From positions 1 to 39,471 of the IMG/VR virus record IMGVR_UViG_3300033149_000835: 39,471 nucleotides of DNA. One strand, given 5' to 3'. Each line of letters opens with the position of its first letter. Position 1 is the stretch's first letter. Below, one piece after another: positions 18,267-32,883 of the stretch. Made by a program: the position numbers and the translations under genes. The stretch comes from a virus. The notes below the pieces were generated by a model, which did not search any database, was not told the origin of the DNA, and saw only the letters and a list, made by a program, of their open reading frames with translations.

Positions 18267-18499
18267 AACAATCAAAAGAAATGGAGGAGGTAAAAGAAAA
18301 ATTGGAAACAATGATATATAATTTAGGTAGTTCATATTATATGGAAGATATACATGATTATATCTCCCAAAACTTCATACCAAGAAGCGAAGCGATACAT
18401 AAGATTGGCGAGGTGGAGGAACTAATAAAGATGGAGTTTGAAAATTGGCAAACTGCGGTAAAAAACTATAACAAACTAACCTCCCTCCTAAAGAAATAA
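18263..18499 (+). CDS. Small cassette protein related to the MTNKQKLEE family (copy 4)
   Basis: A 78-residue helical charged protein. 'YISQNFIPRSEAIHKIGEVE' corresponds to the 'ISQNFIPKAEHKEI' segment of the paralogues at 13805 and 15710, and the end 'KLTSLLKK' recalls 'KLNQLKG'. Its N-terminus (MKQSKEMEEVKEKLE) has diverged. It shows that the family extends beyond the variable region, past the terminase. The function is unknown. Confidence 0.6.
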   Translation: MKQSKEMEEVKEKLETMIYNLGSSYYMEDIHDYISQNFIPRSEAIHKIGEVEELIKMEFENWQTAVKNYNKLTSLLKK

Positions 18500-18503
18500 G
18501 AAT

Positions 18504-18755
18504 ATGAAAACAAGACTAGATCACTTAAAAGAGATTAGAGAAGCCAATGAAAGGCAAGCTATTTTGCTTGAAGTGCAAATGTGCATTGCTGAAAGGCACA
18601 AAGCAACTATGTCGTTAAAGCCTAATGCCGGTAATATGCTGGAATTGCAGAACATTATTACAAAAGCAAAATCACAAATAAAAGATTTAGAAGAAGGTAT
18701 AGATGTTCTAAATGACAAAATCATTACTGAATCTAAAAAACAAAAGAAAACTTGA
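18504..18755 (+). CDS. Coiled-coil hypothetical protein
   Basis: An 83-residue protein with helices 'IREANERQAILLEVQMCIA' and 'LELQNIITKAKSQIKDLEEG', mostly predicted coiled coil. It overlaps the next gene by 44 bases. It may be a scaffold-like or packaging accessory, but nothing diagnostic is visible. Confidence 0.55.
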   Translation: MKTRLDHLKEIREANERQAILLEVQMCIAERHKATMSLKPNAGNMLELQNIITKAKSQIKDLEEGIDVLNDKIITESKKQKKT

Positions 18756-19377
18756 TGTAGTTATTACTACATCTTGGGATGACTTTACTGAACAAGATGA
18801 ACGATTAGTCCAGTTGCTTTTAGAATACAGAATACCGGCTATCTTTTATATCCCATATAACGCATTGCTAAGAGAAGGTGCTATGCGATTGGCCAAGCGG
18901 GTGTCTAAGAGATTTGGTATAGGCTCGCATACTGTCAATCACAAGATACTGACAAAGATTTCAAATGACGAATTGACAGAAGAAGTGTTTGGTTCTAAGC
19001 AACTGTTAGAAAGTAGCCTGGAGATTCCGATTAATTCATTCTGCTATCCTCGGGGGCGGTATAATCAGAAAGTAATTAATGTGGTTAAGGAAGCCGGATA
19101 TACTTCGGCCAGGACAGTTGATGTTTTGAATACGGATATACTGACTGATCCTTACAGGATTAAAACAACTATACACGCATTTTCTGGAAGGCAGGAATAT
19201 AAGGGGGATTGTTGGGTAGATATAGGATTGAGAAAACTGGATGAGGTGCTATTATGCGGTGGGTATTTCCACTTATGGGGACACAGCAAGGAGATAGAAA
19301 AAAATAAGGAATGGACTAATTTAGAATGGTTTTTAAGTTATTTAAGCAATCGAATAAATGAAGATATACTTAGCTAA
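18712..19377 (+). CDS. Polysaccharide deacetylase (NodB/CE4-like)
   Basis: A 221-residue protein with NodB-fold motifs: 'SWDDF' (D23, D24) in place of the usual TFDDG, 'GSHTVNH' with metal histidines 73 and 77, 'CYPRGRYN' at 111-118, and 'FHLWGHSKE' near the C-terminus with the catalytic His. CE4 enzymes remove N- or O-acetyl groups from glycans such as peptidoglycan or extracellular polysaccharides. No signal peptide is seen, so a cytoplasmic substrate or intermediate is more likely. It is the first gene of the island. ATG 18712 is the only clear start. Confidence 0.8.
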   Translation: MTKSLLNLKNKRKLDVVITTSWDDFTEQDERLVQLLLEYRIPAIFYIPYNALLREGAMRLAKRVSKRFGIGSHTVNHKILTKISNDELTEEVFGSKQLLESSLEIPINSFCYPRGRYNQKVINVVKEAGYTSARTVDVLNTDILTDPYRIKTTIHAFSGRQEYKGDCWVDIGLRKLDEVLLCGGYFHLWGHSKEIEKNKEWTNLEWFLSYLSNRINEDILS

Positions 19378-20260
19378 TCAATCAAAACAAAGTCTTGGCG
19401 GTGGCTGGACTTTTATGCAGAATTTAAAGACTGTTTTAAAAGATAAGGTTGAGTTTGTTGATAATGCGTGGGATTGTGATATTTACTTTATATCCGGTGC
19501 AACAATGGTTAATAGAGATGAGGTTAAGGCGGCTAAGGAGGAGGGCAAGAAGATTGTATTGAGGGTTGACAACATACCCAGAAACAGCAGGAACAGGAAT
19601 ACAGGGACTACACGACTGTATGACTTTGCGCAGTTGGCCGATCATGTAGTGTTCCAGTCAGAGTGGGCTAAGGATAAAATGCTGCCATTACTGGATGCTG
19701 AACGGGATGAGATTAGTAATGATAATAATAACTTTCTATATGGCCAGGGCGGTAAGAAACAGTTTAAAGATTGGTCAATAATTTATAATGGTGTTAATAC
19801 GGATATATTCAAGCCAGAGGGTGGCCATATAGTTAAATCACCTGATTGGAAATATTATTTAATCAATCGGCTTAACCGGGATAACAACAAACGCTTAGAA
19901 GAAGCCCTTGACATATTCACAGATATATGGCGTGAGAATAAAAAATCTAAGTTATATATAATTGGTAAGTTTTCACCTGAATTAATAGATGCTTACTTTG
20001 ATTTTTACTTAGGTGAATCTTTTGAGTGTTTGGGAGTTATAAGTAGTCAGGAGAGTTTGGCTGAAATTTATAGGACTTGTGATACGCTTATCTATCCTAG
20101 TTATTCAGACGCTTGCCCTAATGTGGTGCTGGAGGCCAGGGCTTGTGGATTGAGTGTATGGCATAGTGGACACGCTGGAATACCGGAAATTATGGCTTTA
20201 GAGGATATTTCTTTAGAGAGAATGGGGAGGGAATATTATAATTTATTTAAGAAGTTATAA
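19358..20260 (+). CDS. Glycosyltransferase, GT4-like (GT-B fold)
   Basis: A 300-residue protein. 'QSLGGGWTFMQNL' is the N-terminal glycine-rich loop, 'SIIYNGVNTDIF' the linker of GT4 proteins, and 'YPSYSDACPNVVLEARACG' the C-terminal nucleotide-sugar site with the E-x7-E type motif. It is shorter than many GT4 proteins (350-400) but both Rossmann halves look complete. It transfers a sugar from a nucleotide donor; donor and acceptor cannot be predicted. It overlaps the deacetylase gene by 20 bases. Confidence 0.85.
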   Translation: MKIYLANQSKQSLGGGWTFMQNLKTVLKDKVEFVDNAWDCDIYFISGATMVNRDEVKAAKEEGKKIVLRVDNIPRNSRNRNTGTTRLYDFAQLADHVVFQSEWAKDKMLPLLDAERDEISNDNNNFLYGQGGKKQFKDWSIIYNGVNTDIFKPEGGHIVKSPDWKYYLINRLNRDNNKRLEEALDIFTDIWRENKKSKLYIIGKFSPELIDAYFDFYLGESFECLGVISSQESLAEIYRTCDTLIYPSYSDACPNVVLEARACGLSVWHSGHAGIPEIMALEDISLERMGREYYNLFKKL

Positions 20261-20318
20261 ATGTGCCCTAGCGGGGGAAAAATCCCCCAATGGGGCTAAA
20301 GAATATTATAATTTATTT
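20231..20318 (+). repeat. 18-bp direct repeat flanking a GC-rich hairpin
   Basis: GAATATTATAATTTATTT occurs at 20231-20248 (end of the GT4 gene) and again at 20301-20318. Between them a strong hairpin (20265-20296) pairs GCCC with GGGC and GGGGGA with TCCCCC around an AAAA loop. It may be a transcript element or the trace of a small duplication at the gene boundary. Confidence 0.6.
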
Positions 20319-20330
20319 GATAGATAAATT

Positions 20331-21215
20331 ATGAAAATACTCATAACAGGTAGCTCTGGCTTTATAGGCAATAAGATATTTGCTGATCTTGATTGTTGTG
20401 GGCAGAAAGACAAGCTATTCCCTTACGATATAAAGACAGGAGATGATATTAGGGATAGGCGGAAGCTGGATCATATATTCGAAACAGAGAACTTTGATAT
20501 TGTAGTGCATTGTGCCGCTTTAACTGGTGTGAGGCGAGGTGAAGAATATCCGGAGGAGTATATCGCCACCAATGTATTGGGAACTAAGAACATAGTAGAT
20601 ATGTGCGATAAGTATGATGTTGATCACCTGATTAACTTTTCATCTTCATCTATTTACTTTCAGACTGGGAGTGAACCTGTTAGGGAGGAGGAAGAAATAA
20701 ACCCACATTCAATTTATGGAATGACTAAGTTAATGGCAGAGCATATTGCTATGCGTGCTGACAGTAAGGTTACGACTATCAGGCCATTTACTGTGTTTGG
20801 TGAGAATGGGAGGCAAGACCAAGTTATACAAAAATGGATTAATCAGATAAACGCTGGTATGCCTATTAGCTTTTACGGAGATGGCCGGACTGGGAGAGGT
20901 TATACTTTTGTTGACGATTTGGTTAGGGGGGTAAGAATGTTGATTGACTTGACTTATAGCGAGCATCATTTTACTAATATATTGAAGCGGACTTACAATA
21001 TAGGTGGGGATTTGTTTATAACACTAGATGAGTTGGTGGATTTGTTTAAGGAGGTTGTGCCAAATTTAAAGATTCATAAATTACCACTTCCTAAAGGGGA
21101 TAATATGTATAATCTAGCAGATACCAGTTTTATTAATGAGGAACTTGGCTGGCAACCTGAATGTAATTTTAATAATACGCTAAAGAAGATTATTAAGTCG
21201 CAGTTAAATGATTAA
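20331..21215 (+). CDS. NAD-dependent sugar epimerase/dehydratase (extended SDR)
   Basis: A 294-residue protein. 'GSSGFIG' at 7-13 is the NAD-binding glycine motif. S-S-S-S-I-Y (about 103-108) and Y-G-M-T-K (about 128-132) supply the catalytic Ser, Tyr and Lys of extended short-chain dehydrogenases. 'IRPFTVFGENGRQDQVI' and 'GDGRTGRGYTFVDDLV' are substrate-domain motifs typical of UDP-glucose/GlcA 4-epimerases. It likely makes or changes an NDP-sugar for the glycosyltransferases of the island; exact substrate is not determinable. It overlaps the dehydrogenase gene by eight bases. Confidence 0.85.
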   Translation: MKILITGSSGFIGNKIFADLDCCGQKDKLFPYDIKTGDDIRDRRKLDHIFETENFDIVVHCAALTGVRRGEEYPEEYIATNVLGTKNIVDMCDKYDVDHLINFSSSSIYFQTGSEPVREEEEINPHSIYGMTKLMAEHIAMRADSKVTTIRPFTVFGENGRQDQVIQKWINQINAGMPISFYGDGRTGRGYTFVDDLVRGVRMLIDLTYSEHHFTNILKRTYNIGGDLFITLDELVDLFKEVVPNLKIHKLPLPKGDNMYNLADTSFINEELGWQPECNFNNTLKKIIKSQLND

Positions 21216-21969
21216 GAATTACAGATCAGAGGTTGGTATAATAGGACTTGGTTTTGTCGGTGGCTGTGTCAGGAGATATTTTAAGGGTGCTGATACATAT
21301 TCTTTGACAAAGGGAGATTTTAAAAAGGTAAATAGACAGAAGTATATATTTCTATGTTTGCCTACACCGTTTAACAAGAAAATGGGAGGCTTTGACTTGA
21401 CTGCTTTGCATCAGAATATATCACAGCTATCTGGCAAAAAGAATATTATTATAAAATCAACTATATTGCCGGGGACTACTAATTACTTTCAGCAAATGTA
21501 TCCACAGCACAACTTCTTCTTTAATCCGGAGTTTCTGCGAGCCAAGCACGCTTGGAAAGACTTTATAAATCCTAGTCGGCAGATAGTTGGTTATGTGAAA
21601 CCGCACCTCAAAAGCATAGCGAATAAGATTATAGAGATGCTTCCGTTGGGAGAGTTTAACCAGATATGCAGCGCTAAGGAGGCAGAGGCGGTTAAACTAA
21701 TCAGTAATTGCTATCTAGCAAGCCGGGTAGTGTTTGCCAATCAGATGTATGACTGGATAACGGAGAGAAACCTGGATTATAAAAAGGTAATTAGAATGGT
21801 AAAGTTTGACCCACGCATAGGCGCAAGCCATTGGGATATATTCACTGATAAGCATAGGGGATATGCCGGGCTGTGCTTTCCTAAAGATATGCAAGCGGTG
21901 ATTATGGATAGCGGCTCACCATTATTAGAATTAACTGATAAATTAAATGATGAATATTTAAAGAAATGA
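21208..21969 (+). CDS. UDP-glucose/GDP-mannose dehydrogenase homologue, short form
   Basis: A 253-residue protein. 'GLGFVG' at 13-18 binds NAD. 'KSTILPGTT' (83-91), 'NPEFLR' (106-111), 'KLISNCY' with K163 and N167, and 'GYAGLCFPKD' with catalytic C223 and K226/D227 match the catalytic set of UDP-sugar dehydrogenases. The C-terminal UDP-binding domain of usual enzymes (total 400 or more) is absent; the gene ends soon after the catalytic cysteine. It may be a minimal active form or act with a partner. Expected product: an NDP-uronic acid. Confidence 0.75.
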   Translation: MIKNYRSEVGIIGLGFVGGCVRRYFKGADTYSLTKGDFKKVNRQKYIFLCLPTPFNKKMGGFDLTALHQNISQLSGKKNIIIKSTILPGTTNYFQQMYPQHNFFFNPEFLRAKHAWKDFINPSRQIVGYVKPHLKSIANKIIEMLPLGEFNQICSAKEAEAVKLISNCYLASRVVFANQMYDWITERNLDYKKVIRMVKFDPRIGASHWDIFTDKHRGYAGLCFPKDMQAVIMDSGSPLLELTDKLNDEYLKK

Positions 21970-22526
21970 GTTATTACAAAGACCAGTTAAATAATTGGCT
22001 AAAAACAATAGATGTAAAAGCCGACAGAGTATTAGATGTCGGTGGTGCTTCTAATCCGGTTAAAGGGAGGACTAAAAGTTGGGAGGTTGAGGAATATGAT
22101 ATTGCTGATAATGGACTAGAGAATAAAGACTATGATACTTACCTAAATCTTAATTCTAATGTTGGGGTATATGCTGGTAATATTTATAAAAGAAAACAAT
22201 ACGATATTATATTTTGTTTAGAAGTAATGGAATATGTTTATAATCCTTATCTCGCCATAGAATGGCTTAAATCTTATACGAAAAAAGGTATTCTTTATAT
22301 TTCATTCCCATTTATTTATCCAATACACGATCCATATAAAAATGACTACTTACGCTATACCAGATTTGGAATAATTAAATTACTGCAATCTTTTGAGATA
22401 GAGAAGATGATAGGCCGGGAAGCTAAAGAGCCAGATAAGCTGATAGACTTCTATAAATCAGACGGAATGCATATTAAGACAGACAGCACTATAACTGGTT
22501 ATTTAGTTAAAGCTATTAAGGTATGA
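21966..22526 (+). CDS. SAM-dependent methyltransferase-like protein
   Basis: A 186-residue protein with 'VLDVGGASNP' (motif I, SAM binding) at about 22-31, 'YDIADNG' (motif II acidic residue), and 'YDIIFCLEVMEYVYNPYLAI', the class I methyltransferase post-II segment. It has no membrane segments. O- or N-methylation of a sugar fits its place between a UDP-sugar dehydrogenase and a glycosyltransferase. ATGA overlaps on both sides. Confidence 0.75.
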   Translation: MSYYKDQLNNWLKTIDVKADRVLDVGGASNPVKGRTKSWEVEEYDIADNGLENKDYDTYLNLNSNVGVYAGNIYKRKQYDIIFCLEVMEYVYNPYLAIEWLKSYTKKGILYISFPFIYPIHDPYKNDYLRYTRFGIIKLLQSFEIEKMIGREAKEPDKLIDFYKSDGMHIKTDSTITGYLVKAIKV

Positions 22527-23122
22527 AGATAGCGGTAGTATCTCACGGAGATGATAAAGTAAAGAAGTGGCGAGAAATATCATTTGCTAATAAGGAGAAG
22601 TATTGCAAAAAACACGGCTACGATTTTATAGGAAGTGATAGAGATACTAATATTGACAGACACCCTTGTTGGGAGAAATGTATTTTAATAAAAGAAGCGA
22701 TTGATAGCAATAAGTATAATTGGATATTCTGGTCGGATATAGACAGTTTAGTAGTGAATATGAATATAAAGTTAGAACAGTTTATTAGCAGCAGATACGA
22801 CTTGATAATCTCACATACTACATTACGCCTGAACTTCGGCAATGCCTTTATAAGTAATAGTGAGTTGAGCAAAAAGATAATGCGTGGCATAGAGGGCATG
22901 GTAAATAAGTATACTCAATATAAGTGGAAATGCGGTTGTGATGAGGGTGCGTTGATTAGGTTGTTAGGTAAGCCGGAATTTGCAATATACTTAGACAGGG
23001 TGAATGTAACTTATTATGCAACATATAATAAATTTCCATATGAATATCAGAAAGGCGACTTTATAATTCACTTCGCTAATAAATGGAAAAACTTTAATCA
23101 ATTTAAGGAGATGGCAATATGA
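22523..23122 (+). CDS. Glycosyltransferase, GT34 (GMA12/MNN10)-like
   Basis: A 199-residue GT-A protein. 'ANKEKYCKKHGYDFI' is typical of the GMA12/MNN10 (GT34) family, 'WIFWSDIDSLV' carries the DxD metal motif (D72, D74), 'FGNAFISNSELSKK' the acceptor loop and 'GDFIIHFANKW' the C-terminal His motif. Known GT34 enzymes are alpha-galactosyl or alpha-xylosyl/mannosyl transferases. The protein is small but all motifs are present. No transmembrane segment. Confidence 0.8.
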   Translation: MKIAVVSHGDDKVKKWREISFANKEKYCKKHGYDFIGSDRDTNIDRHPCWEKCILIKEAIDSNKYNWIFWSDIDSLVVNMNIKLEQFISSRYDLIISHTTLRLNFGNAFISNSELSKKIMRGIEGMVNKYTQYKWKCGCDEGALIRLLGKPEFAIYLDRVNVTYYATYNKFPYEYQKGDFIIHFANKWKNFNQFKEMAI

Positions 23123-23331
23123 AAATATCAATATATACACCAATAGCAAAACATAGAAGGAAACTTGACGAACTTAATATTGATGATGAAATTGTTATTA
23201 AAGTAGATACTCAGAATTATTATTGTAAGGTAAGAGGCTGGAATAAATATCAAGGCAGTATATTTGTGTTAAGAGTTAAGGGAGAACCAAAAACTGATAA
23301 AGAAATAATAAATATATTAAAACGAAAATGA
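23119..23331 (+). CDS. Small hypothetical protein in the glycan island
   Basis: A 70-residue protein, MKISIYTPIAKHRRKLDELN, strand-rich, with 'IVIKVDTQNYYCKVRGWN'. Its ATG and stop overlap its neighbours by four bases each, so it is translated within the operon. The first codons (ATGAAAATATCAATAT) resemble those of the next gene (MKISIF). No family is recognised. Confidence 0.55.
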   Translation: MKISIYTPIAKHRRKLDELNIDDEIVIKVDTQNYYCKVRGWNKYQGSIFVLRVKGEPKTDKEIINILKRK

Positions 23332-24206
23332 AAATAAGTATTTTCACAACTCTAGGTAATATAGGCAACACGCCTGATTATTGGCAGTATGCTTGGCGTG
23401 AAGCATTACAATCATATTTAGATTTTGCTGATGAAGTGGTGGTTGTATGGGGTGGAAAAAAACCATCAAGACCAGATCCCTACGAAGAAAATTTAAAAAC
23501 CATTGATTTATTTTGGCCATACGACTTTAGTTGGGAGGAGATAGCCAAGCACTTTAACGCTGGACTAGAGGCTTGCACTGGCGACTGGGCTATTAAAATG
23601 GACATAGACTACATAATACACGAAAAGGATATGGAGGGCTGGAGAACACAGTTAGAGGGCTATTTAAAAGAGAATTGGGCGGTATGTTCGTTTATGAAGT
23701 TTACAGTGCTTAATGTATTTAGGGCATATCAAAAGGTTCACTTGCCGTTTATTATAAATAAGAATAGTCTTCTGCCGGTTAAGTTTGGCATACCAACAGA
23801 CGATCCGGGTAGTGCGTGGGGTTATCCTATTTTGGCACAGGGTTTTGATGATAGGCGTGGACTGCCTGTCGGGACTACTATTCCAGACGAAATGGTGCGG
23901 TCAACCGGAGTTGATATATTTAACTACGATAATACATTCAGGAATAAGGAGAAGACTGGAGAACACTTTTTAAGGTTTAGTAATGCCAGGGCAAAGGCTG
24001 GATTTAAACGACAATGGGGAAATACTAAGGAAGAAGCACTAAAGAAGTTCTGTGATATGATGGCTTCACGGATTAAAAAGACAAGTGGAACTTATAAGCC
24101 ATTAAACCATATGTGCCACCCTAAATATATTAGGGACAGGATTAAGGGCTTAACTGTTGATGAGTTCGGTGCTAATAATTGGAATAATTTTAAGGGGATA
24201 TTATGA
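23328..24206 (+). CDS. Glycosyltransferase, GT2-like (GT-A fold)
   Basis: A 292-residue protein. 'ISIFTTLGNIGNTPDYW' begins the Rossmann-like domain, and 'NAGLEACTGDWAIKMDIDYI' holds the DxD (D92, D94) in the usual place after the A/G-rich helix. The rest of the protein has extra loops and a basic C-terminus. The GT2/GT-A class is secure; donor and acceptor are unknown. The gene opens with the four-base overlap typical of this operon. Confidence 0.75.
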   Translation: MKISIFTTLGNIGNTPDYWQYAWREALQSYLDFADEVVVVWGGKKPSRPDPYEENLKTIDLFWPYDFSWEEIAKHFNAGLEACTGDWAIKMDIDYIIHEKDMEGWRTQLEGYLKENWAVCSFMKFTVLNVFRAYQKVHLPFIINKNSLLPVKFGIPTDDPGSAWGYPILAQGFDDRRGLPVGTTIPDEMVRSTGVDIFNYDNTFRNKEKTGEHFLRFSNARAKAGFKRQWGNTKEEALKKFCDMMASRIKKTSGTYKPLNHMCHPKYIRDRIKGLTVDEFGANNWNNFKGIL

Positions 24207-24709
24207 AACTTAATCTTGGCTGTGGGCTTACATTACTTAAAGGTTTTATAAATATAGATTTAGAATATCCTGATAATATAGATTTCTTTATTGCACAGGC
24301 AAAAGGCACAAAATTTATAAGGCGAGATATTACAAGGGGTTTGCCGTTCAGTAACAATTCTATTGATGAAATTAGGGCAATATCGGTTCTTGAACATTTG
24401 GATAGTGATGACTTCTTGTTTGTAATGAATGAGTGTTGGCGTGTATTGAAAGAGGAAACCTTTTTAATAGTGAAAGTTCCTTACTGGAAATCAGACGCTT
24501 GCTGGCGTGATCCGACACATAAAAGGGGATTTAGCCTGAATACGATTAGATACTTTGATCAGATGAGCATTAAACATTATCCGACATACGGATTTATGCC
24601 CTGGAATATAATCAATGAACGGCTAATGAATAGCCGGCATGAAAAAGAATCTATTATAAATTGGGTGTTAAGCCCATATAAGAAAGGAGATTGGAAAAAA
24701 TATGCCTAA
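24203..24709 (+). CDS. SAM-dependent methyltransferase-like protein
   Basis: A 168-residue protein starting directly with motif I 'LNLGCG'. 'GFINIDLEYP' supplies the acidic motif II, 'SIDEIRAISVLEHLDSDDF' and 'ECWRVLKEETFLIVKVPYW' follow the Methyltransf_11/predicted-MT pattern common in capsule loci. It is small but complete. It likely acts on a sugar or lipid-linked intermediate; substrate unknown. Confidence 0.75.
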   Translation: MKLNLGCGLTLLKGFINIDLEYPDNIDFFIAQAKGTKFIRRDITRGLPFSNNSIDEIRAISVLEHLDSDDFLFVMNECWRVLKEETFLIVKVPYWKSDACWRDPTHKRGFSLNTIRYFDQMSIKHYPTYGFMPWNIINERLMNSRHEKESIINWVLSPYKKGDWKKYA

Positions 24710-25241
24710 TACATTTTGGGAAAATTTAAAAGAATACGCTAAGCCTGAACGCACAGAATATGTTGCGCCGATACTTTATTTTCTAGCTAAATATATGAAC
24801 GCTAAAGTAACGGCAGAGATAGGTTCGCTTAATGGTTATTGCACAGTAGCGTTGGCAACTGCTATGAAAGAAAATGTTGGAGTGCATTATGTTATTGAAT
24901 TGAGCAAAACTAATATCAAAAAAACAGAAGAAGTTTGTAAGATTTATAATATTCCAGAATATGTTTTTTATTACGAAGGAGATAGTCAAAAGATTGAATT
25001 TACCCGCAAACTAGATTTGTTGTTTGTTGACGGCGATCACGGTGAGAATAAAGTTATCCACGAAATTCAGAAATACTGGCCGCTTATAAACAAGAACGGC
25101 TTGATGTGCTTTCACGACCACCTTGCGCCTAAGTCAGTTGGTGTTGCCCTAAACGGTTCAAGCGTTAGGGAATTTAGGGAACAAGCCGAAGTAATTAATT
25201 TACCTTACGATAGTGGATTAACTATATGGAGAAAAAAATAA
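24702..25241 (+). CDS. SAM-dependent methyltransferase (Methyltransf_24-like)
   Basis: A 179-residue protein. 'AEIGSLNGYCTVALATAM' is motif I, 'HYVIELSKTNIKKTEEV' the second beta strand, 'LDLLFVDGDH' the D-G-D-H motif of the Methyltransf_24/TylF-like O-methyltransferases, and 'GLMCFHDHLAP' the following His motif. These families O-methylate sugars or hydroxylated natural products, with Asp/His metal ligands visible here. It overlaps the preceding gene by eight bases. Confidence 0.75.
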   Translation: MPNTFWENLKEYAKPERTEYVAPILYFLAKYMNAKVTAEIGSLNGYCTVALATAMKENVGVHYVIELSKTNIKKTEEVCKIYNIPEYVFYYEGDSQKIEFTRKLDLLFVDGDHGENKVIHEIQKYWPLINKNGLMCFHDHLAPKSVGVALNGSSVREFREQAEVINLPYDSGLTIWRKK

Positions 25242-26288
25242 ATGGATAAAAATATAGATTTAAAAACACCCGAGAATGTGGCAAGATTATATAATGGTAT
25301 TCGGAGTAGTGAGCTTTATAATATACCAAGACCAGTAAAAAAGGAAAATAGAGTTTCTGTAATGGTTGCTTTTACGCCAAACCCTTATCTTGCTTTGCAC
25401 TTTTTTGATCATATGAAAAACTGGATTGGTGATGTTGATGAGGTATTTATTGCGGTTGAGGGTGAGAATACAAAGTTTAATGGGGAGATAAAAAATTTTA
25501 TTAGTAATCTATTTTTGCACAATAAAATAAGCAACTTTGAATATGGACAGCCAATGGATCAAGGAGAAGTATTTGATAAAATGTTTCCGTTTGTTACAGG
25601 TGATATTCTGGTTACAATGGATAGCGATTATATTATTAAAAAGAGAGGCTATTTAAAAAAGTATCTGAAACAGATTGAGAGTGGCACTTACGATATTATA
25701 GGTTCAAGAGGTGGTGCTTGTTATAAAGAATTGAGGGCATTTTTAGATCCTTATGTGGCACATGATAAAGATAAAAATTTGAGAGTTAATCCGTTCCTTT
25801 CATTTTGGAAAGTGGAAACGCTAAAAAAGATTGTAGGACTTTCTTTTGCAGGCAAAGAGATTAAAAAGGGTGATATAATATTTCCTAAAGCGGAAGTTAA
25901 AGCGCCTGCTGACGGTTGGGTTGATCCGTTTGTTTTAGCTTATCTGGCCTATACGGAATATGATAAAAAAATATTTATAACAAAACAAGACGCTGAACCG
26001 CCGGATACTTTCCATTATAGCGGTATGTCTTGGACTTATAGATATTATCTAAGTAATGAAAATGGATTAACGCCTGACGGAACATTGGTGGGTAATAAGT
26101 TTAAGTTAAGAATATTCCATTTGGCTTTGCATATAGCTTTATATGAGAATTATAGAGGCCGTTATCCTGACAAGGAATATAATGATTTTGTGGGCGAAAC
26201 GCTGGAACAGCATAGGGGTTTTGCCAAAGACCATAAACAATTATTAGAAGATGATATTAAGATATTTAATGCGATAATAAAATTATGA
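25242..26288 (+). CDS. Glycosyltransferase-like protein with DxD motif
   Basis: A 348-residue GT-A-type protein. A short N-terminal segment precedes 'VSVMVAFTPNPYLALHFF', and 'GDILVTMDSDYIIKK' carries DSD (D127, D129). 'APADGWVDPF' and 'PPDTFHYSGMSWTY' are conserved-looking acceptor-side loops. It starts directly after the preceding stop. The class is inferred from fold pattern plus the acidic motif; it is less typical than the other members. Confidence 0.65.
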   Translation: MDKNIDLKTPENVARLYNGIRSSELYNIPRPVKKENRVSVMVAFTPNPYLALHFFDHMKNWIGDVDEVFIAVEGENTKFNGEIKNFISNLFLHNKISNFEYGQPMDQGEVFDKMFPFVTGDILVTMDSDYIIKKRGYLKKYLKQIESGTYDIIGSRGGACYKELRAFLDPYVAHDKDKNLRVNPFLSFWKVETLKKIVGLSFAGKEIKKGDIIFPKAEVKAPADGWVDPFVLAYLAYTEYDKKIFITKQDAEPPDTFHYSGMSWTYRYYLSNENGLTPDGTLVGNKFKLRIFHLALHIALYENYRGRYPDKEYNDFVGETLEQHRGFAKDHKQLLEDDIKIFNAIIKL

Positions 26289-26899
26289 AGGAAGATAGGG
26301 TTCACTTATTCCAAGACTATTTAAGGAAGTTTAATGTCAATCCTGATTTAGTTTGGTCGTGGTTGCTATATGACCGCTATTACGAAGCGAATATATTAAG
26401 GCGTTATCTATTAAAAAAAGGTATAACTAAATTTCACGGATTGGATTATGGCTGTGGTGTTGGGGATTATGGTGTTTATTTATTGAAACATTTTGATTGT
26501 TCAATGGACTTCCACGACTTTGATTATATGCTTGACTTTGTAAAGTTTAGATTAAAAGATCAAACCTTTAATGCAAAATATATTATTGCTGTTCCATCTG
26601 CATTGAAAGATAAATTGGGTGATTATACAGATATAGAAAAGCATGATTTAGTGATTTTCGGTGAGGTGCTTGAACATTTAAAGAATCCTGATGAGGTGCT
26701 TGAAGAATGTTTAGATAATAAAGTAAGATTTGTATTAACCACATCTTATCCTTATCGGGAGGATTTAGACCATTTTAAAAAGGGAGGACATTTAATGGAG
26801 GCTGGTAAATTGCAACCTGTCTGCCGAAAATTATTAGAAAATAATTATAATTTTTATAACCCAGAGGGTGGGTTAAGAATTTGGGAATTAAAACTATGA
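26285..26899 (+). CDS. SAM-dependent methyltransferase-like protein
   Basis: A 204-residue protein. 'GLDYGCGVGDYGVYLL' is motif I. 'FHDFDYMLDF' gives the motif II acidic residue. 'DLVIFGEVLEHLKNPDEVLE' is the usual post-II stretch of class I methyltransferases seen in polysaccharide clusters. The C-terminus ends with 'GGLRIWELKL'. Overlaps of four bases on both sides put it firmly in the operon. Substrate unknown. Confidence 0.75.
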   Translation: MKEDRVHLFQDYLRKFNVNPDLVWSWLLYDRYYEANILRRYLLKKGITKFHGLDYGCGVGDYGVYLLKHFDCSMDFHDFDYMLDFVKFRLKDQTFNAKYIIAVPSALKDKLGDYTDIEKHDLVIFGEVLEHLKNPDEVLEECLDNKVRFVLTTSYPYREDLDHFKKGGHLMEAGKLQPVCRKLLENNYNFYNPEGGLRIWELKL

Positions 26900-28509
26900 G
26901 AATATTAATGACACCTGACATTTTAGAGTGGGCAATCGGTAGTCTATCAAAAGCTATTATAAAACATAACCCACGATTTAACTGGTCGCTTATACCAGTT
27001 CACCCGAGGGGCGTAGCTAACAGTTTGCCTGCTATTGTAGAGGCACTTAAAAAGGGTGTTGATTTTTGGCACGCACAATATTGGAATAGTGCAATACAGA
27101 TGTTAAATGTATTTCCTGAACTTAAACATAAGCCTTCATTATTGACGCACCATAATCATCACTGTTTGGAGAAAAAGGACTGGCGAGTATTTAGTGGGGT
27201 AAATGAAATGACTAATTGGGGTTGTGATGTGTTGAGAAAAAAACACAATAAAGTTTATCATATACCACACGGCATTGATTTAGACAGGTATAGCTTTATA
27301 GATGATTACCCATCTAAGAATGATATACCAACAGTCGGTTATGTTGGCCGGGTAGTTCCCTGGAAAAAACTGGATAAAATTTGTGAGGCTGCTAAAAATC
27401 TGGATTATAAAGTGGTTGGTTATGGATATATTGATAAACCTGATTATTGGAATAGGATCAAAGAATTATATGTGCAAGAGAGTGATTGGGATAGGTCTAT
27501 ACTTGACTTTACTGGTCAGGTAGGCAGGCATGGAATGGCACCGGCTAATATGAAAGATGACGGCTATAAAAAAATGGATGTATTTGTGGCATATTCAGTA
27601 GGTGAAAAGGAATCAGGAACTTTACCTCTGTTGGAGGCTATGGCCAGAGGAGTGCCTGTAATGGCCACAGCACAGGGTATGGCAAGGGATTTGATTGAGC
27701 ATAACAAAAATGGTGTTATATTCAATGAGGATAATTTTGAGAGTGAACTTAAAAGAGTTATGGAGGATGTTGAATTGCGGAAACAGCTAAGGAAAAACGC
27801 TTGGGAAACTATAAAAAACTATCCTGAACAGAAAATGGCCAGGGCTTATGCTAAAAGTTATTACGATATTATATGGTCAGGTAATCCGGTAGTGTCGGTT
27901 ATAATCCCGACATTTGAAAGGGCTGAACATCTTGTCAATACGATAACCTCTATTGAAACACAAGAATACTTAGCTAAAGAGATAATTGTCGTTGATGACG
28001 GATCACAGGATAAGGGTGCTACCGAACTATTATGCCGAAAGCTAAAGGAGAAGATAAGAACACCACTTTTATACCTAAACACCAACCACAAAGGATATGG
28101 ACTTGCTAAAGCACGGAATATGGGTGTAGTAGAGGCATTGGGGGATATACTGTTATTCTTAGATGATAGGCTTACACTTGAAGATAATGCACTAGCAGAA
28201 ATTGCCAAAGTGCCTGATAAGAAATGGCATCACGGCGCAAAACTTTCAAAGGGCAAGATTTCAACCAAGCGGACTTTTATTGAAAACTTTAGCTGGATTA
28301 AGAAATCTGATTTTGTTTCAGGCGGAATGTTTAATGAACGAATGGGATATTATGGCGGTATGAGCCAGTTATTAAGAGAGCAATATTCTGAAAAGGTTGA
28401 GTTTAAATATAATAACAAGGCTACTGCCTATGAAGCTGTCAGGGCCAGGCGTGGGCGAAAGACAGATATATGGAAAGCTAAAGAAATAATTGCTAAGTTA
28501 AACGCATGA
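26896..28509 (+). CDS. Bifunctional GT4-GT2 glycosyltransferase fusion
   Basis: A 537-residue protein from ATG 26896 (the TTG at 26881 lies in the preceding gene). Residues about 1-330 form a GT4: 'IPHGIDLDRY', 'PTVGYVGRVVPWKKLD', 'ESGTLPLLEAMARGVPVMAT'. Residues about 340-537 form a GT2: 'VSVIIPTFERAEHL', 'EIIVVDDGSQD', and 'GLAKARNMGVVEALGDILLF' followed by LDDR in place of the DxD. Two transfers in one chain suggest sequential sugar addition. The C-terminal GT2 lacks a long acceptor domain, so it may be small. Confidence 0.85.
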   Translation: MRILMTPDILEWAIGSLSKAIIKHNPRFNWSLIPVHPRGVANSLPAIVEALKKGVDFWHAQYWNSAIQMLNVFPELKHKPSLLTHHNHHCLEKKDWRVFSGVNEMTNWGCDVLRKKHNKVYHIPHGIDLDRYSFIDDYPSKNDIPTVGYVGRVVPWKKLDKICEAAKNLDYKVVGYGYIDKPDYWNRIKELYVQESDWDRSILDFTGQVGRHGMAPANMKDDGYKKMDVFVAYSVGEKESGTLPLLEAMARGVPVMATAQGMARDLIEHNKNGVIFNEDNFESELKRVMEDVELRKQLRKNAWETIKNYPEQKMARAYAKSYYDIIWSGNPVVSVIIPTFERAEHLVNTITSIETQEYLAKEIIVVDDGSQDKGATELLCRKLKEKIRTPLLYLNTNHKGYGLAKARNMGVVEALGDILLFLDDRLTLEDNALAEIAKVPDKKWHHGAKLSKGKISTKRTFIENFSWIKKSDFVSGGMFNERMGYYGGMSQLLREQYSEKVEFKYNNKATAYEAVRARRGRKTDIWKAKEIIAKLNA

Positions 28510-28907
28510 AACTTGATATAGGCTGCGGCAAGAATTGTAGAGAAGGATATGAAGGTATTGATAAACAGAACTATGGACAGAAATTTGTCGGTGATGCCCT
28601 GTGGATTATTGAAACAGAATTTAGGAGGGAAACTATTGACGGAATATACACTTCTCACTTCTTAGAGCATTGCGAACAGGATTACATTATAAATCTATTG
28701 AAAAACTGTCATAGGATTTTAGTAAAAGACGGGATACTCTGGATTATAGTGCCGCACAAAGAACACGATAGAGCCTATATATTATGGCACAAGACTTTCT
28801 TTACCGAGTGGACATTTAGGGATTTAGAGGGTTATAAGGACTGGGAAATAATTGAATTGGTAACCAATAGCAGAATGGATATACATTGTAAACTAAAAAA
28901 GATATAA
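28506..28907 (+). CDS. Short SAM-dependent methyltransferase-like protein
   Basis: A 133-residue protein: 'MKLDIGCGKNCREGYEGID' is motif I plus the motif II acid, 'IDGIYTSHFLEHCEQDYII' and 'ILVKDGILWIIVPHKEH' the post-motifs. At 133 residues it is near the lower limit for a complete class I methyltransferase fold. It may be minimal, or a partner of one of the other four. Confidence 0.65.
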   Translation: MKLDIGCGKNCREGYEGIDKQNYGQKFVGDALWIIETEFRRETIDGIYTSHFLEHCEQDYIINLLKNCHRILVKDGILWIIVPHKEHDRAYILWHKTFFTEWTFRDLEGYKDWEIIELVTNSRMDIHCKLKKI

Positions 28908-28910
28908 GAG

Positions 28911-29705
28911 ATGCTTAAATCGGTATATATACAAACAAATACTCTGTGCAACAGCCGTTGTATTATCTGTCCTTACAAAGATACCTATGCTGGTAAGCGT
29001 GTTGGTAGAATGAGTTATGATTTGGCTATAAAGATATTCAAAGATTTAGGGGAAGATTATGAAGGCGAGATAGGGTTTTATTTTCAGTATGAACCTCTAA
29101 TGGATAGCCGGTTGCCTGAATTTCTAAAGTTAGCTAGGTGGGAATGCCCTAAGTCGAGAATTACAATATCAACCAACGCACAACTATTAGTTAAGAACTG
29201 GCAGAAACAGTTGATTGATTCACCACTTGATTGTGTTTACTTCAATGTATTAGGCGGAACTAAAAAGACTTATGAAAAGATAATGCATCCGCTTAACTGG
29301 GAAACGACTATTAAGAATATCAATGAGTTTGCAAAGAAATTTAAAGGCTCAATGTTCATTAACTATATAAAGATAAAAGAAAATAAAAAGGAAATTGGCG
29401 CTTTAATGAAAGTGCTACCGAATAATATCGGATTTATAACTGAATACTGGGCAAGTGATAGAAATAAGCGCATTAAAATAAATAAGCCCAAAGGTGCAAA
29501 AACTAGGTTTGTAACCGATCATAACTGCAATGTAATCGGGAAAGGTTTATATATTTACTATGACGGCAAAGTTCCGTTATGCTGTGAGATATGGGATAGA
29601 GAAGTTATTATAGGTGATGTCAAAAAACAAAATCTTTATAATATATTTAATTCACCTAAAAAGCATACACGATATGATGTGTGCAAGGAGTGTTTAATGC
29701 AATGA
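28911..29705 (+). CDS. Radical SAM protein with SPASM-like C-terminal Cys cluster
   Basis: A 264-residue protein. 'TLCNSRCIICPYKD' has the CxxxCxxC motif (C13, C17, C20) that binds the 4Fe-4S cluster and SAM. 'GEIGFYFQYEPLMDSRL' is the 'GGEP'-like SAM-binding strand and 'ITISTNAQLL' the next conserved strand. The C-terminus has 'CNVIGKGLYIYYDGKVPLCC' and 'YDVCKECLMQ', a SPASM/twitch-like cysteine set for extra clusters. It would catalyse a radical modification of a sugar or peptide; substrate unknown. Confidence 0.85.
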   Translation: MLKSVYIQTNTLCNSRCIICPYKDTYAGKRVGRMSYDLAIKIFKDLGEDYEGEIGFYFQYEPLMDSRLPEFLKLARWECPKSRITISTNAQLLVKNWQKQLIDSPLDCVYFNVLGGTKKTYEKIMHPLNWETTIKNINEFAKKFKGSMFINYIKIKENKKEIGALMKVLPNNIGFITEYWASDRNKRIKINKPKGAKTRFVTDHNCNVIGKGLYIYYDGKVPLCCEIWDREVIIGDVKKQNLYNIFNSPKKHTRYDVCKECLMQ

Positions 29706-29944
29706 AAAAAATATATAAAGAAAAATATTATAAAGTTAAGTTTTATAGTAAGGGTAATAAGTTAATGGCAACATCTTTTTTATGGAAAAGTGTAGCTGAA
29801 CCAACACCATTTAATTCTTGGGGGGCGCTATTAAACGCAATTTCAATACATAATTTTGATAAAGCAACAGCGAATAAACATGAAGCAAGAGCTTGTAAAG
29901 AGATAGAAGAAAAAACAGTTAAAATAATAATTGAAAAATTATGA
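29702..29944 (+). CDS. Small hypothetical protein in the glycan island
   Basis: An 80-residue basic protein, MKKIYKEKYYKVKFYSKGNK, ending 'EIEEKTVKIIIEKL', with strands at both ends and a helix between. ATG 29702 overlaps the radical SAM stop (ATGA); a GTG at 29681 in frame is unlikely. No family is recognised. Confidence 0.55.
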   Translation: MKKIYKEKYYKVKFYSKGNKLMATSFLWKSVAEPTPFNSWGALLNAISIHNFDKATANKHEARACKEIEEKTVKIIIEKL

Positions 29945-30627
29945 TAGGCGCATTTATATTATCAACAGGGCAAGAAACAGAAGGATCGTCAATAGCTTCA
30001 ATAGCTAAGCAGGTCAAGTTCCTTAGAATTATTAAACAACGCCCTGTTAATCGGTCAATCAATTTATGTTTCCGTTTGGCAGAAGAATATAAACTAACTT
30101 ATTTTGTGATACTCGGTGCTGACACTATCCATTATGAACACTCAATTAAGACAATGGCCAAGTATATGACTGATAAATTATGGTGTGTAATGGGTAAACT
30201 AGACGACTATTATAGGGGATCAGACAGTTATGGCAACCATTTATATAACGCTAAAGCACTTAAAGGGTATAGAGTTGATGAATCTGATCCGCTTTATGAC
30301 CATGCTATACACGCTGATATGGATAAAAAGGGATTTAAGAAAGTATTAACTAAGGAGATTATTGGCAAGCATCATCCTATGTGGACAACCCAAGAGGCTT
30401 TTGAGAAACATTTATTTAGCGGTAAGCGGTATAAAGATAAGGATTTTAGAATATACTATAACCAGGTAAAGAAACGGCACACAGAGAATCCCTGTGAAGT
30501 TAATCGGGCTGCCTATGAAGGATTTAAGGCTGGCATTGGTAATAAGCCTAAACCATTAATTCATTCTGAAACGCCGGAATGGAAAAAAGTTAAACATTTA
30601 TTTAAACAGGAAAAATTAATATGGTAA
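29941..30627 (+). CDS. Glycosyltransferase-like protein, GT2-type half
   Basis: A 228-residue protein. 'RPVNRSINLCFRLAEEYKL' followed by 'TYFVILGADTIHYEHSIKTM' fits the GT2 helix and acidic strand, with D61 at the DxD place (A-D-T). The N-terminal nucleotide-binding beta strand is short (MIGAFILSTGQ), so it may be an unusual or partial GT-A domain. A possible acceptor-binding C-terminal domain follows. Lower confidence than the other GT calls. Confidence 0.55.
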   Translation: MIGAFILSTGQETEGSSIASIAKQVKFLRIIKQRPVNRSINLCFRLAEEYKLTYFVILGADTIHYEHSIKTMAKYMTDKLWCVMGKLDDYYRGSDSYGNHLYNAKALKGYRVDESDPLYDHAIHADMDKKGFKKVLTKEIIGKHHPMWTTQEAFEKHLFSGKRYKDKDFRIYYNQVKKRHTENPCEVNRAAYEGFKAGIGNKPKPLIHSETPEWKKVKHLFKQEKLIW

Positions 30628-30854
30628 AGAAATATAAAAAAATTTCTTTTAGAACAAATGGTGTTTTTGTGCCTTGTTGTTTTACAATAGATGATGGTAA
30701 TTATGTTACTCACATATATCCACCTAAAAAATTTAATGTTAAATATTTACAAAAATGGTCAGATGATTTTATGAAAGAATATAAGCTCGAAGGTAAAATA
30801 ATTTTTAAAAAATTGAAAAGGGGAATAAAATATGAATACAAAGAAAAAACTTAA
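30621..30854 (+). CDS. Small hypothetical protein
   Basis: A 77-residue basic protein, MVKKYKKISFRTNGVFVPCC, with aromatic strands and 'YLQKWSDDFMKEYKLEGK'. It overlaps the next gene by 23 bases and the previous by seven. No family is recognised; it may be a small partner in the operon. Confidence 0.5.
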   Translation: MVKKYKKISFRTNGVFVPCCFTIDDGNYVTHIYPPKKFNVKYLQKWSDDFMKEYKLEGKIIFKKLKRGIKYEYKEKT

Positions 30855-31851
30855 AATTGTTTGCACACATTGGCAGATTATGCACTGGTGGGATTTATTC
30901 AATGCACTTAAGGAACACGCTGACTTTTATTTGATAACAAATAATCACCGAGACTGGCGCAAGCCACAATATTTAGCAGCTAGGTCAATACCTGACAATG
31001 TTTACTTTGTGCCTTATTATGAAAAGGGGAAATACGATTTTGCTATTCTTAATATTGATCAGCAATGTTCTAATCCGAGGCTTGGCAAAACTAGACTGTT
31101 TATAGAACTCAACGAATTGATACAGGATATTCCGAAGGTCATTATAAACCACGCAACACCTGTTTATCCTGAACTTCTTGCTAAGGCCGGAGAAACATAT
31201 TTGGAAGCTGAAAAAGAATGCAGGAAGATTATTAAGGGTATGGTTGGCGATACTCTAATGGTTACGAATAGTTATCAAGCTGCAACAGAGGCAGAGTGGG
31301 GTTGGGGTTATCCCATATGGCACGGATTAAACGCTGACGAATGGCTGGATTTACCAAAAGAGCCACGCATATTTTCTGCGTTATCACCGGGTGGCTGTGA
31401 TGAATATTATAACAGGTCTATGATGAATGAGGTTATACGGCAGATGTCAGAGAAGTGGGGACATACAATTTATTGGGCTAAAATAAATGTCGGCACACAA
31501 AGATCAATAACAGACTATAAAGAGTATCTGGGCAAGTCGCTTATTTATCTTGATGTATCATTTAGAACTCCAATGAACAGGGCTAGAGCAGAAGCTATGC
31601 TATCGGGCTGTTGCGTAGTGCAAGTTGACGGCGGACACGATTTGAAAAGATTTGCTAGAAATGGTGAGAATATGATTTTAGTTAATAACAAACCTGAACA
31701 GATAGTGCAGACTTTGATTGAATTGGTTGAGAAGCGGTATAAGAAGTGTGTGAAGATTGGACAAGCTGGAAAGGAAACTGCTAAGAAATATTTTAATAGG
31801 GAACGCTATCGTGATGATTGGCTTAAACTTATAAAGGAAAAAATATTATGA
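30832..31851 (+). CDS. Glycosyltransferase, GT-B fold (GT4-like)
   Basis: A 339-residue protein. 'LKIVCTHWQIMHWWDLFNAL' opens the N-terminal Rossmann domain, 'VGDTLMVTNSYQAATEAEWG' links to the second, and 'MNRARAEAMLSGCCVVQVDG' with 'GENMILVNNKPEQIVQTL' is the nucleotide-sugar end of GT4-like proteins (E in R-A-E-A). AAGGGG at 30819-30824 is a weak Shine-Dalgarno for ATG 30832. Donor unknown. Confidence 0.75.
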   Translation: MNTKKKLKIVCTHWQIMHWWDLFNALKEHADFYLITNNHRDWRKPQYLAARSIPDNVYFVPYYEKGKYDFAILNIDQQCSNPRLGKTRLFIELNELIQDIPKVIINHATPVYPELLAKAGETYLEAEKECRKIIKGMVGDTLMVTNSYQAATEAEWGWGYPIWHGLNADEWLDLPKEPRIFSALSPGGCDEYYNRSMMNEVIRQMSEKWGHTIYWAKINVGTQRSITDYKEYLGKSLIYLDVSFRTPMNRARAEAMLSGCCVVQVDGGHDLKRFARNGENMILVNNKPEQIVQTLIELVEKRYKKCVKIGQAGKETAKKYFNRERYRDDWLKLIKEKIL

Positions 31852-32708
31852 AAATAAGTATATGCACATTTGAAAAGTGGAATGGCCGAGAACCTGGCAC
31901 AATAGGTTCATCAATGATTAGAGGTAAATGGATTGCCGAGAAATGGCCGGAGGCTAAGATATGGAGTAATGGCCAGAAGGCTGATGTTATGATATTCCAA
32001 AAGGTTTATTCAAAAGAAATGATGACTGACTTTAAGGGAATTAAGATTTTAGACCTCTGTGATCCTGACTGGTTCAGCACTGAGCAGACAAGATGTTATA
32101 TCAACGAACTGTCCACTATGGTTGATGCTATTACCTGTTCAACCCAAGAACTTGTTGATTTCATAAAAACATTTGCTAAAATTCCAGTGGTCTATATTCC
32201 GGACAGGCTTAATTTGGATTATTTCACTACTAAAAAGCAACACACTGAACGGGCTAAGATAGTTGTTTGGTTCGGTTATAGCTACAACGCCAAAGAAGTG
32301 TTGCCGAGAGTATTACAATCTTTGAAAGCACGACAGCTTAATTTAAAAGTAATTTCTAATGCACCATTTGAACCCAACGAAGATTTTGGAGTGAGAATTG
32401 ATAATGTTGTGTGGATACCGGAAAACGCTTATATGGAAATACAAGCTGGGGATATGTCTATCAATCCTCCGGCGCTAGTAAAACAATTCAGGTTTAAATC
32501 AAATAATAAAACACTTATATCCTGGGGACTTGGTTTGCCAGTTTGTAATCTAGCTGATGATATGGATAGATTTTTAGACCCGAAGGAAAGGGAAAAGGAA
32601 GTCGATATACGCCGAAAAGAAATAGGCGAGAAGTGGGATATTATAGATAGTGTTAAACAATATAAGGACTTAATATGTCATATACAGAAAACGAAAAAGA
32701 ACAATTAA
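31848..32708 (+). CDS. Glycosyltransferase-like protein, GT-B type
   Basis: A 286-residue protein with two Rossmann-like halves: 'ISICTFEKWNGREPGTIGSS' and 'VVWFGYSYNAKEVLPRVLQS' as domain starts, 'AITCSTQELVDFI' and 'VVYIPDRLNLDYF' between them. The C-terminal half contains 'KSNNKTLISWGLGLPV', a loop where GT4 proteins bind the donor. It lacks the clear E-x7-E, so the activity is less sure. It is the last enzyme gene of the island and is followed by a promoter and portal. Confidence 0.6.
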   Translation: MKISICTFEKWNGREPGTIGSSMIRGKWIAEKWPEAKIWSNGQKADVMIFQKVYSKEMMTDFKGIKILDLCDPDWFSTEQTRCYINELSTMVDAITCSTQELVDFIKTFAKIPVVYIPDRLNLDYFTTKKQHTERAKIVVWFGYSYNAKEVLPRVLQSLKARQLNLKVISNAPFEPNEDFGVRIDNVVWIPENAYMEIQAGDMSINPPALVKQFRFKSNNKTLISWGLGLPVCNLADDMDRFLDPKEREKEVDIRRKEIGEKWDIIDSVKQYKDLICHIQKTKKNN

Positions 32709-32863
32709 ACAAGGAATTAATTAAATATTGTGAAAAAATAGGCTTTGGGAAATTCACAGTTGAAGTTCTTAATGGCACGCCAATAAATATAGAAAGGGGT
32801 TTACAGAGGATAAGACTGGATAAGGGCTTGACAAATTTTCCAGGTAATGCCACAATGAAATAA
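32675..32863 (+). CDS. Small DUF2292-like protein
   Basis: A 62-residue protein, MSYTENEKEQLNKELIKYCE, then 'IGFGKFTVEVLNGTPINIE' and 'LQRIRLDKGL'. The G-x-[FV]-x-[FV]-x-V-x-[ND]-G-x-[PV]-[IV] stretch resembles small DUF2292 proteins. It overlaps the last glycosyltransferase gene by 34 bases and contains the -35 of the portal promoter in its 3' end. Confidence 0.5.
   Translation: MSYTENEKEQLNKELIKYCEKIGFGKFTVEVLNGTPINIERGLQRIRLDKGLTNFPGNATMK
32828..32856 (+). promoter_or_regulatory. Promoter for the portal/late gene block
   Basis: TTGACA (32828-32833), 17-base spacer, CACAAT (32851-32856, four of six). The context 'CTTGACAAAT' is shared with the promoters at 8731 and 36309 and the TTGACA at 9888. 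A stem-loop leader follows at 32884-32914. Confidence 0.6.
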
Positions 32864-32883
32864 GAAGTCAAACTTACCACGAC

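Follow-up and report, generated by a model that had tools for sequence, protein, structure and literature searches.

A Portal-Linked Module of Carbohydrate Enzymes in Uncultivated Tailed Phages

Why would a small tailed phage devote more than a third of its genome to carbohydrate chemistry, and why would the genes lie between those for the terminase and the portal? The question is raised by IMG/VR virus record IMGVR_UViG_3300033149_000835, a virus contig of 39,471 nucleotides (hereafter the window), in which a block of carbohydrate-enzyme genes, all on the + strand, occupies 18712–32708. As judged from its relatives, the block is an inherited or exchangeable, ordered phage module with a variable middle, not an island acquired once. 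We propose that it probably encodes a cytoplasmic pathway that would build an O-methylated glycan on a virion protein, most likely one of the head or associated with it.

The block and its genome

By Pfam and structure prediction, the block comprises one deacetylase, eight glycosyltransferases (GTs), five class I methyltransferases (MTs), one epimerase, one short dehydrogenase of uridine diphosphate (UDP)-sugars, and one radical S-adenosylmethionine (SAM)/SPASM protein. This is the inventory that an initial annotation, made from the window's letters alone, had proposed, and the position of the block on one strand between terminase and portal likewise stands. The open reading frames (ORFs) of the block and its flanks are:

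17106–18266, +, terminase large subunit (TerL), left neighbour (PHROG terminase large subunit, E 5e-41)
18263–18755, +, two small ORFs of 78 and 83 aa ahead of the block, separated by 4 bases, the second overlapping the next gene by 44 bases; no family match
18712–19377, +, NodB-like polysaccharide deacetylase, conserved first gene of the module (PF01522, E 1.7e-17)
19358–20260, +, GT4a, a GT4-type GT, core (PF13692, E 4e-12; 50 sequences aligned)
20331–21215, +, short-chain dehydrogenase/reductase (SDR) sugar epimerase/dehydratase (PF01370, E 5e-42)
21208–21969, +, short UDP-sugar dehydrogenase homologue without the C-terminal domain (UDPG_MGDP_dh: PF03721, N-terminal, and PF00984, central)
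21966–22526, +, MT1, class I MT, core (PF13489, E 5.5e-6, just under the cut-off; 57 sequences aligned)
22523–23122, +, GT34-like GT, cargo special to this genome (PF05637, E 1e-14; the only copy among the loci compared)
23119–23331, +, 70-aa ORF with 4-base overlaps, function not assigned
23328–24206, +, GT2a, GT2-like GT with DxD (PF00535, weak)
24203–24709, +, MT2, class I MT (PF08241, E 2e-6)
24702–25241, +, class I MT of the Methyltransf_24 type (PF13578, E 2e-13)
25242–26288, +, GT2b, GT2-like GT, cargo (PF00535, E 0.001, below the cut-off)
26285–26899, +, MT3, class I MT (PF08242, E 3e-7)
26896–28509, +, GT4-2, two-module GT, GT4 then GT2, core (PF00534, E 4e-18; PF00535, E 2e-19)
28506–28907, +, MT4, class I MT (PF08241, E 2e-5)
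28911–29705, +, radical SAM/SPASM protein, cargo (PF04055, E 4e-14; PF13186, E 9e-8)
29681–29944, +, 87-aa ORF, function not assigned (no Pfam match)
29941–30627, +, GT2c, GT2-like GT (PF00535, weak; conserved in L084 and L085)
30621–30854, +, 77-aa ORF with 7- and 23-base overlaps, function not assigned
30832–31851, +, GT4b, GT, core, next to last (PF13692, E 2e-5, just below the curated cut-off; 95 sequences aligned)
31848–32708, +, GTx, phage-specific GT of predicted GT-B fold, core, last (model with predicted local distance difference test, pLDDT, of 90.8; 111 sequences aligned)
32675–32863, +, small ORF between GTx and portal, in a slot for which relatives have two alternative, unrelated small proteins
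32921–35182, +, portal protein, right neighbour (PHROG portal, E 2e-113)
35169–36305, +, protein between portal and protease, candidate head appendage (alignment and neighbour list; conserved start, swapped end)

Sixteen of the 19 gene junctions within 18712–32708 are overlaps of 4–25 nt, the other three being gaps of 0, 3 and 70 nt, in line with the mostly overlapping genes described at first. The small ORFs at 18263–18499 and 18504–18755, before the block, and at 32675–32863, after it, are part of the same run. The block makes up 35.6% of 39,357 unique bases, close to the 36% first estimated, and its GC content (0.358) is that of the rest of the genome (0.356). Therefore, composition gives no sign of foreign origin. 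No 19-residue Kyte–Doolittle window exceeds 1.1 in any block protein, and thus none has an obvious membrane span, as had been claimed. A promoter scan gave no excess over shuffled sequences, and no terminator-like site was found on the + strand from 16500 to 36400; the latter fits read-through, but weakly.

The window is a complete phage genome. Its ends share an identical 114 bp, and the ORF of a head–tail connector crosses the end joint in frame (38961–39471 into base 3 onward). The related 37.7-kb genome G003 also has 114-bp overlapping ends; TerL and NodB lie close to one end of its record, GTx and portal close to the opposite end, so that, closed into a circle, it has the same arrangement as the window. 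The equal length of the end matches, exactly 114 bp in three divergent genomes (the window, G003 and G019), suggests that they come from the assembler, which overlaps the ends of a closed genome, and are not a terminal repeat of biological origin. The matching ends, the in-frame joint and the independent copies exclude, for practical purposes, that the assembly is chimeric at 18.7 or 32.7 kb, one of the findings that the initial annotation had said would undo it: the block recurs at the same place in independent assemblies.

From the conservation of their catalytic residues, the block enzymes look active. D23, D24, H73, H77 and H191 of the deacetylase are conserved in 30–32 of 33 sequences, while Y129 and K133 of the epimerase and K163, C223 and K226 of the dehydrogenase are each present in 33/33. 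The DxD of GT2a is retained (D92 in 38/39 and D94 in 39/39 sequences), as are the CxxxCxxC and SPASM cysteines of the radical-SAM protein (8/8). Ratios of nonsynonymous to synonymous change (pN/pS) are 0.24–0.50 for the core enzymes of the module, 0.46 for the portal and 0.33 for the terminase, values to be read with synonymous sites near saturation. The dehydrogenase also lacks its C-terminal domain in close relatives (257–263 aa), which argues for a stable variant, not a broken gene. In G003, two overlapping ORFs (35529–36307) stand in place of a single epimerase gene, perhaps through a frameshift or a sequencing error.

Recurrence, order and distribution

Is the block peculiar to this phage? 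Single-sequence scans of viral records with the portal or the deacetylase gave no match, apparently owing to overly specific patterns, but alignment searches did find relatives: 90 viral relatives of GT4b and 107 of GTx. Merging of the loci by shared k-mers left 104 distinct contigs with GTx or GT4b, the window included. The loci extend 10 kb to each side, so that only nearby portals are visible; order and strand are not biased thereby.

The module runs on one strand in the order deacetylase, GT4a, methyltransferase, variable genes, GT4–GT2 fusion, GT4b, GTx, portal. NodB precedes GT4a in 29/29 cases, GT4a precedes MT1 in 41/41, and MT1 precedes GT4-2 in 47/52. The right part is stricter still, with GT4-2 before GT4b in 70/70, GT4b before GTx in 88/88, and GTx before the portal, on the same strand, in 88/88. 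The gap between GTx and portal is below 600 bp in 46 of these 88 contigs, a pattern that includes the window. In 28/88, a terminase gene, of one of two unrelated types recognised, lies between GTx and portal; for most of the remaining contigs, no terminase was recognised within the available stretch. The portal relatives with enough upstream sequence (n = 32) are divided, 15 having the module and 17 lacking it.

These data bear directly on the earlier view of an island inserted between terminase and portal, which does not hold as a single event. The block recurs as an ordered module, it also lies just upstream of the terminase, and it is absent from some portal relatives. The premise that terminase and portal are normally neighbours is sound, since the two genes are adjacent in module-less L299, L283, L285 and L320. 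Comparison of terminase–portal spacing, which had been suggested as a check, thus supports the premise in several module-less relatives, but not the insertion, given the 28 contigs with the block upstream of the terminase.

The closest relatives show how the module varies. A protein search with the GT4–GT2 fusion found four other contigs at 65–70% identity. L083 has NodB, GT4a, epimerase, dehydrogenase, MT1, GT2a, GT4-2, MT4, GT4b, GTx and portal; L082 has the terminase and then the left part as in L083; and in L084 (from G003) and L085, the right part of the block is joined to the portal. The GT34, Methyltransf_24, GT2b and MT3 genes are nearly unique to the window, which marks the middle of the block as cargo.

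Three observations concern the same neighbourhood. The slot between GTx and portal (for example, 32675–32863 in the window, 12180–12374 in L083 and 6008–6190 in L157) holds two unrelated types of small protein, one of 60 aa with a ...YG...GxPxK...RFDL pattern and the other a zinc ribbon (CP..C...C..C). In the module-less genome G011 (L011 3311–10047; ends match over 75 bp), a different glycan set occupies a similar place, upstream of the terminase: a GT2, a LicD, an epimerase, a cytidylyltransferase–DUF2061 protein and a C5 DNA methylase. L312 encodes large proteins just before the portal (6174–9472), one of them GT2-like by eye.

Outside these environmental contigs the signature genes are scarce. 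GTx and GT4b had no tblastn match among 50,697 deposited phage records, and tblastn matches of GT4-2 among deposited phages were confined to Bacillus and faecal phages. When bacterial and archaeal contigs were scanned with GT4-2, using narrow patterns, there were two relevant matches. The first contig, from a Nitrospirae bin, is 36,078 bp long, and its ends match over 100 bp; it carries the whole module upstream of terminase and portal and looks like a complete phage, not a chromosome. The second, from a Saccharibacteria bin, is a contig of 7.6 kb. Both are metagenome bins and are poor evidence of the host. In the Saccharibacteria-binned phage contig L099, one ORF (456–1787) consists of a GT-like part, undetermined bases and a C5 DNA methylase, and is probably a scaffold join. 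In a set of 1,123 bacterial genomes drawn from four phyla, strong GTx matches were limited to those two phage contigs, with no chromosome among them. The module-bearing contigs span 33–57% GC, and the core enzymes are thus probably retained across different hosts.

The initial annotation had pointed to a chromosomal copy of the block with Wzx/Wzy as evidence against its reading; no chromosomal copy occurs in the bacterial genomes sampled. This matters for the simplest alternative, namely that a bacterial polysaccharide locus was recently caught by one phage or was misassembled into it. The adjacency of terminase and portal in some relatives is what one would expect from such an event, but the block is present in independent assemblies, two of them self-closing (the window and G003), its GC matches that of the rest of the genome, and no bacterial copy was found. 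We give this alternative almost no credence.

The proposed glycan and its acceptor

If the block makes a glycan, where is the glycan put? Absence of the membrane machinery of glycan export, as noted in the initial annotation, extends to the relatives. The flippase family PF01943 was found in 0/32 records (the window and 31 relatives; 13/14 controls positive), as was the initiating phosphoglycosyl transferase family PF02397 (0/32; 9 controls positive). Among 693 ORFs in 64 blocks, there was no flippase-like protein, and the 5 ORFs with two membrane-like segments are all short. The initial annotation had suggested cytoplasmic synthesis, for virion glycosylation or for alteration of a host glycan intermediate. 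The cytoplasmic part is supported, and virion glycosylation is, in our judgement, the better and a probable inference.

In the host-directed version, the enzymes would act from within the cytoplasm on a surface glycan of the host, or on its lipid-linked intermediate, and the change would block superinfection or alter the receptor. GT4, GT2, deacetylase, epimerase and dehydrogenase are indeed families of surface polysaccharide loci, and the set upstream of the terminase in module-less G011 (GT2, LicD, epimerase, cytidylyltransferase–DUF2061) includes LicD, a type of enzyme whose usual targets are surface glycans. However, neither PF02397 nor PF01943 occurs in the 32 records, no polytopic flippase-like protein is encoded in the 64 blocks, and the core is conserved between phages far apart in GC, for which different host glycans would be expected. 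Linkage of the block to head genes speaks against this version as well, as does the lack of any lysogeny gene among those ORFs of the window that were examined. We consider this version unlikely, though it is the strongest of the alternatives.

The tie to head genes can be measured. The rank correlation of pairwise divergence with that of the portal is 0.69 for GTx (n = 82), 0.64 for GT4-2, 0.59 for GT4b, 0.38 for MT1 and 0.34 for GT4a; on a fixed set of 29 contigs, the values are 0.63, 0.58, 0.49, 0.52 and 0.35, respectively. Divergence of the portal correlates with that of the head protease at 0.59. GTx thus tracks the portal as well as the portal tracks the protease, and GT4a does so poorly, which suggests an inner core that moves together with the head genes and outer genes that are exchanged. 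Since the core is kept across probably different hosts, a phage-encoded acceptor would fit better than one of the host. The soluble enzymes, the absence of membrane machinery, the tie to head genes and the spread in GC, taken together, are best explained by glycosylation of a virion protein.

Phages glycosylate DNA as well, and the target could be modified bases of the phage's own DNA, glycosylated to resist restriction. Pyle et al. 2024, as cited in PMC12619734, report hypermodification of DNA with diverse glycans by virus GTs. Against this, PF00303, the thymidylate synthase/hydroxymethylase family, was found in 0/32 records (9 controls positive), and no base-making enzyme was seen among the window ORFs scanned. 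A DNA target therefore seems to us improbable. For the TET/JBP family PF12851, the 32 records gave no match, but neither did the control. A role as a defence system was also considered and rejected, there being no PADLOC match.

Pfam gives no GT match for GTx itself, and none of the solved structures in the Protein Data Bank (PDB) matches it in sequence. The structure-based search that the initial annotation had called for was run for this protein and gave a confident GT-B fold. The AlphaFold model is closest to GT4 enzymes (BshA, 6d9t, Z 22.7, root-mean-square deviation 2.7 over 268 residues), and further fold matches include MshA, SdgB, GtfC/Gtf3 and GTs with small acceptors; such matches do not establish the function of GTx. 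With this model, the count of eight GTs in the block is correct. The usual E-x7-E motif of GT4 enzymes is absent: before the conserved P231-V232, GTx has FKSNNK (K217, S218, N220, K221) in place of the glutamates, and K217-S218-x-N220 is nearly invariant among its homologues.

The presence of BshA, MshA and other small-acceptor GTs among the nearest folds might indicate that the product is a small glycoside or free glycan, serving as decoy or signal, and not a conjugate of protein or DNA. Natural-product clusters often hold radical-SAM enzymes and methyltransferases, both of which are present here. Nonetheless, with a small product it is not obvious why about a hundred phages should keep these genes closely and in fixed order beside their head genes, and we rate the probability of such a product as very low.

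Glycosylation of a virion protein might proceed as follows. The epimerase and the short dehydrogenase would adjust UDP-sugars, giving the module its own donors. The conserved last three enzymes, the GT4–GT2 fusion, GT4b and GTx, would prime and extend a core on the protein, to which GT4a, GT2 and GT34 enzymes would add outer sugars. The deacetylase would expose amines, and the methyltransferases would O-methylate the glycan, with the variable middle genes altering its outer structure between phages. The oligosaccharide would be attached to a phage structural protein in the host cytoplasm, so that the virion would be released already glycosylated. We infer the substrates, the order of steps, the acceptor and the benefit to the phage, which may be shielding or receptor mimicry.

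Several points weigh against such a pathway. The acceptor, the sugar and the glycan on the virion are all putative. Mere adjacency could account, at least partly, for the way in which GTx tracks the portal, and the location among late genes could serve timing only. Deacetylase and uronate-type chemistry occur in cell-surface polysaccharides too. Moreover, some portal relatives lack the module, which is therefore not essential for this type of virion.

A possible acceptor is the protein encoded at 35169–36305, after the portal, whose start is conserved and whose end is swapped among relatives. This pattern makes it a candidate head appendage; its predicted structure is unreliable (pLDDT 35). 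Collagen-like repeats, a classic substrate of O-glycosylation, were considered as a general acceptor and rejected as too rare, being found in 2/103 module contigs and 0/70 comparators. One such protein, with 49 GxY triplets (GATGPTGPTG...), is encoded shortly after the portal of the module phage G005 (L171 19556–20828).

Known systems and other genes of the window

Few phages are documented to have glycosylated virions, and each of these has one or a few GTs. The phages described here, of 36–42 kb, devote 23–36% of the genome to soluble glycan enzymes. About a hundred distinct environmental contigs carry the module, against none of the 50,697 deposited phage records with its signature genes, and GTx and GT4b can thus serve as signature families for finding such phages. 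If the product is on the virion, phage surface glycans would be a major overlooked trait that could affect adsorption, recognition and host choice.

In mycobacteriophages, phage-encoded GTs glycosylate proteins of the capsid and the tail tube (PMC12363180). For Che8, Corndog and Myrna, the work is that of Freeman et al. 2023, as it is presented in PMC12363180 and PMC12619734. The likeness lies in a tailed phage with GTs of its own, which in the mycobacteriophages act on structural proteins according to these accounts. They name one or a few GTs per phage, whereas here a single conserved cassette at the portal holds 7–8 GTs, a deacetylase, donor-making enzymes and up to five methyltransferases. 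GTx and GT4b had no tblastn match in the mycobacteriophages of that system, Corndog being outside the comparison.

A closer parallel in chemistry may be found among giant viruses. Chlorovirus PBCV-1 builds its capsid glycans with virus enzymes outside the endoplasmic reticulum and Golgi (PMC7826918) and encodes a GT–methyltransferase fusion (PMC4691112); chloroviruses and mimivirus carry methylated particle glycans made by virus enzymes (PMC7826918, PMC4691112). Virus-encoded, organelle-independent methylated glycans, multidomain GTs and a conserved core are shared features, predicted here from genes alone. Those are giant eukaryotic viruses with unrelated capsids, whereas here the genes form a contiguous block in phages of 36–42 kb. 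It is tempting to see in the block a head-linked glycan factory of uncultivated tailed phages, in which GTx, perhaps with GT4b, primes the core and a swappable cassette gives each phage its own methylated coat, as in giant viruses; we offer this fuller picture tentatively, at slightly less than even chances.

Other systems share single features. The gtrA–gtrB–gtr cassettes of serotype conversion are also phage-borne GTs, and the GT2 half of GT4-2 matches GtrB-like PHROGs; here, however, there is no membrane flippase or membrane GT and no lipid carrier, and no integrase was seen beside the block. SdgB and GtfC/Gtf3, which O-glycosylate serine-rich adhesins in the cytoplasm, are soluble, sequentially acting GT-B enzymes whose fold GTx shares, but they belong to cellular systems, and GTx has no sequence match to any solved structure. 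Flagellin islands are another example of cytoplasmic protein O-glycosylation. From a Wzx/Wzy surface polysaccharide locus, the block differs in having neither Wzx (PF01943) nor the initiator (PF02397) and in not being chromosomal in the genomes sampled. The multi-enzyme, head-linked form, with its size, fixed order at the portal and phage-specific GTs, appears not to be described in the literature searched.

Four features elsewhere in the window are recorded for completeness. A perfect 12/12 sigma-70 consensus (TTGACA, 18 nt, TATAAT) is found at 36309–36338, between the gene at 35169–36305 and the protease and major capsid genes. The protein encoded at 10851–11642 contains a run of near-identical DSVRDSVWDSVGGSV repeats and has no Pfam match. 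At 10197–10658, a CAP-domain protein (PF00188) has an N-terminal hydrophobic segment and is likely secreted or membrane-bound. Finally, after the tail genes, the ORF at 7402–7935 has a weak TNF/C1q-like domain (PF00229, E 6e-4, below the cut-off) and could encode a receptor-binding tip.

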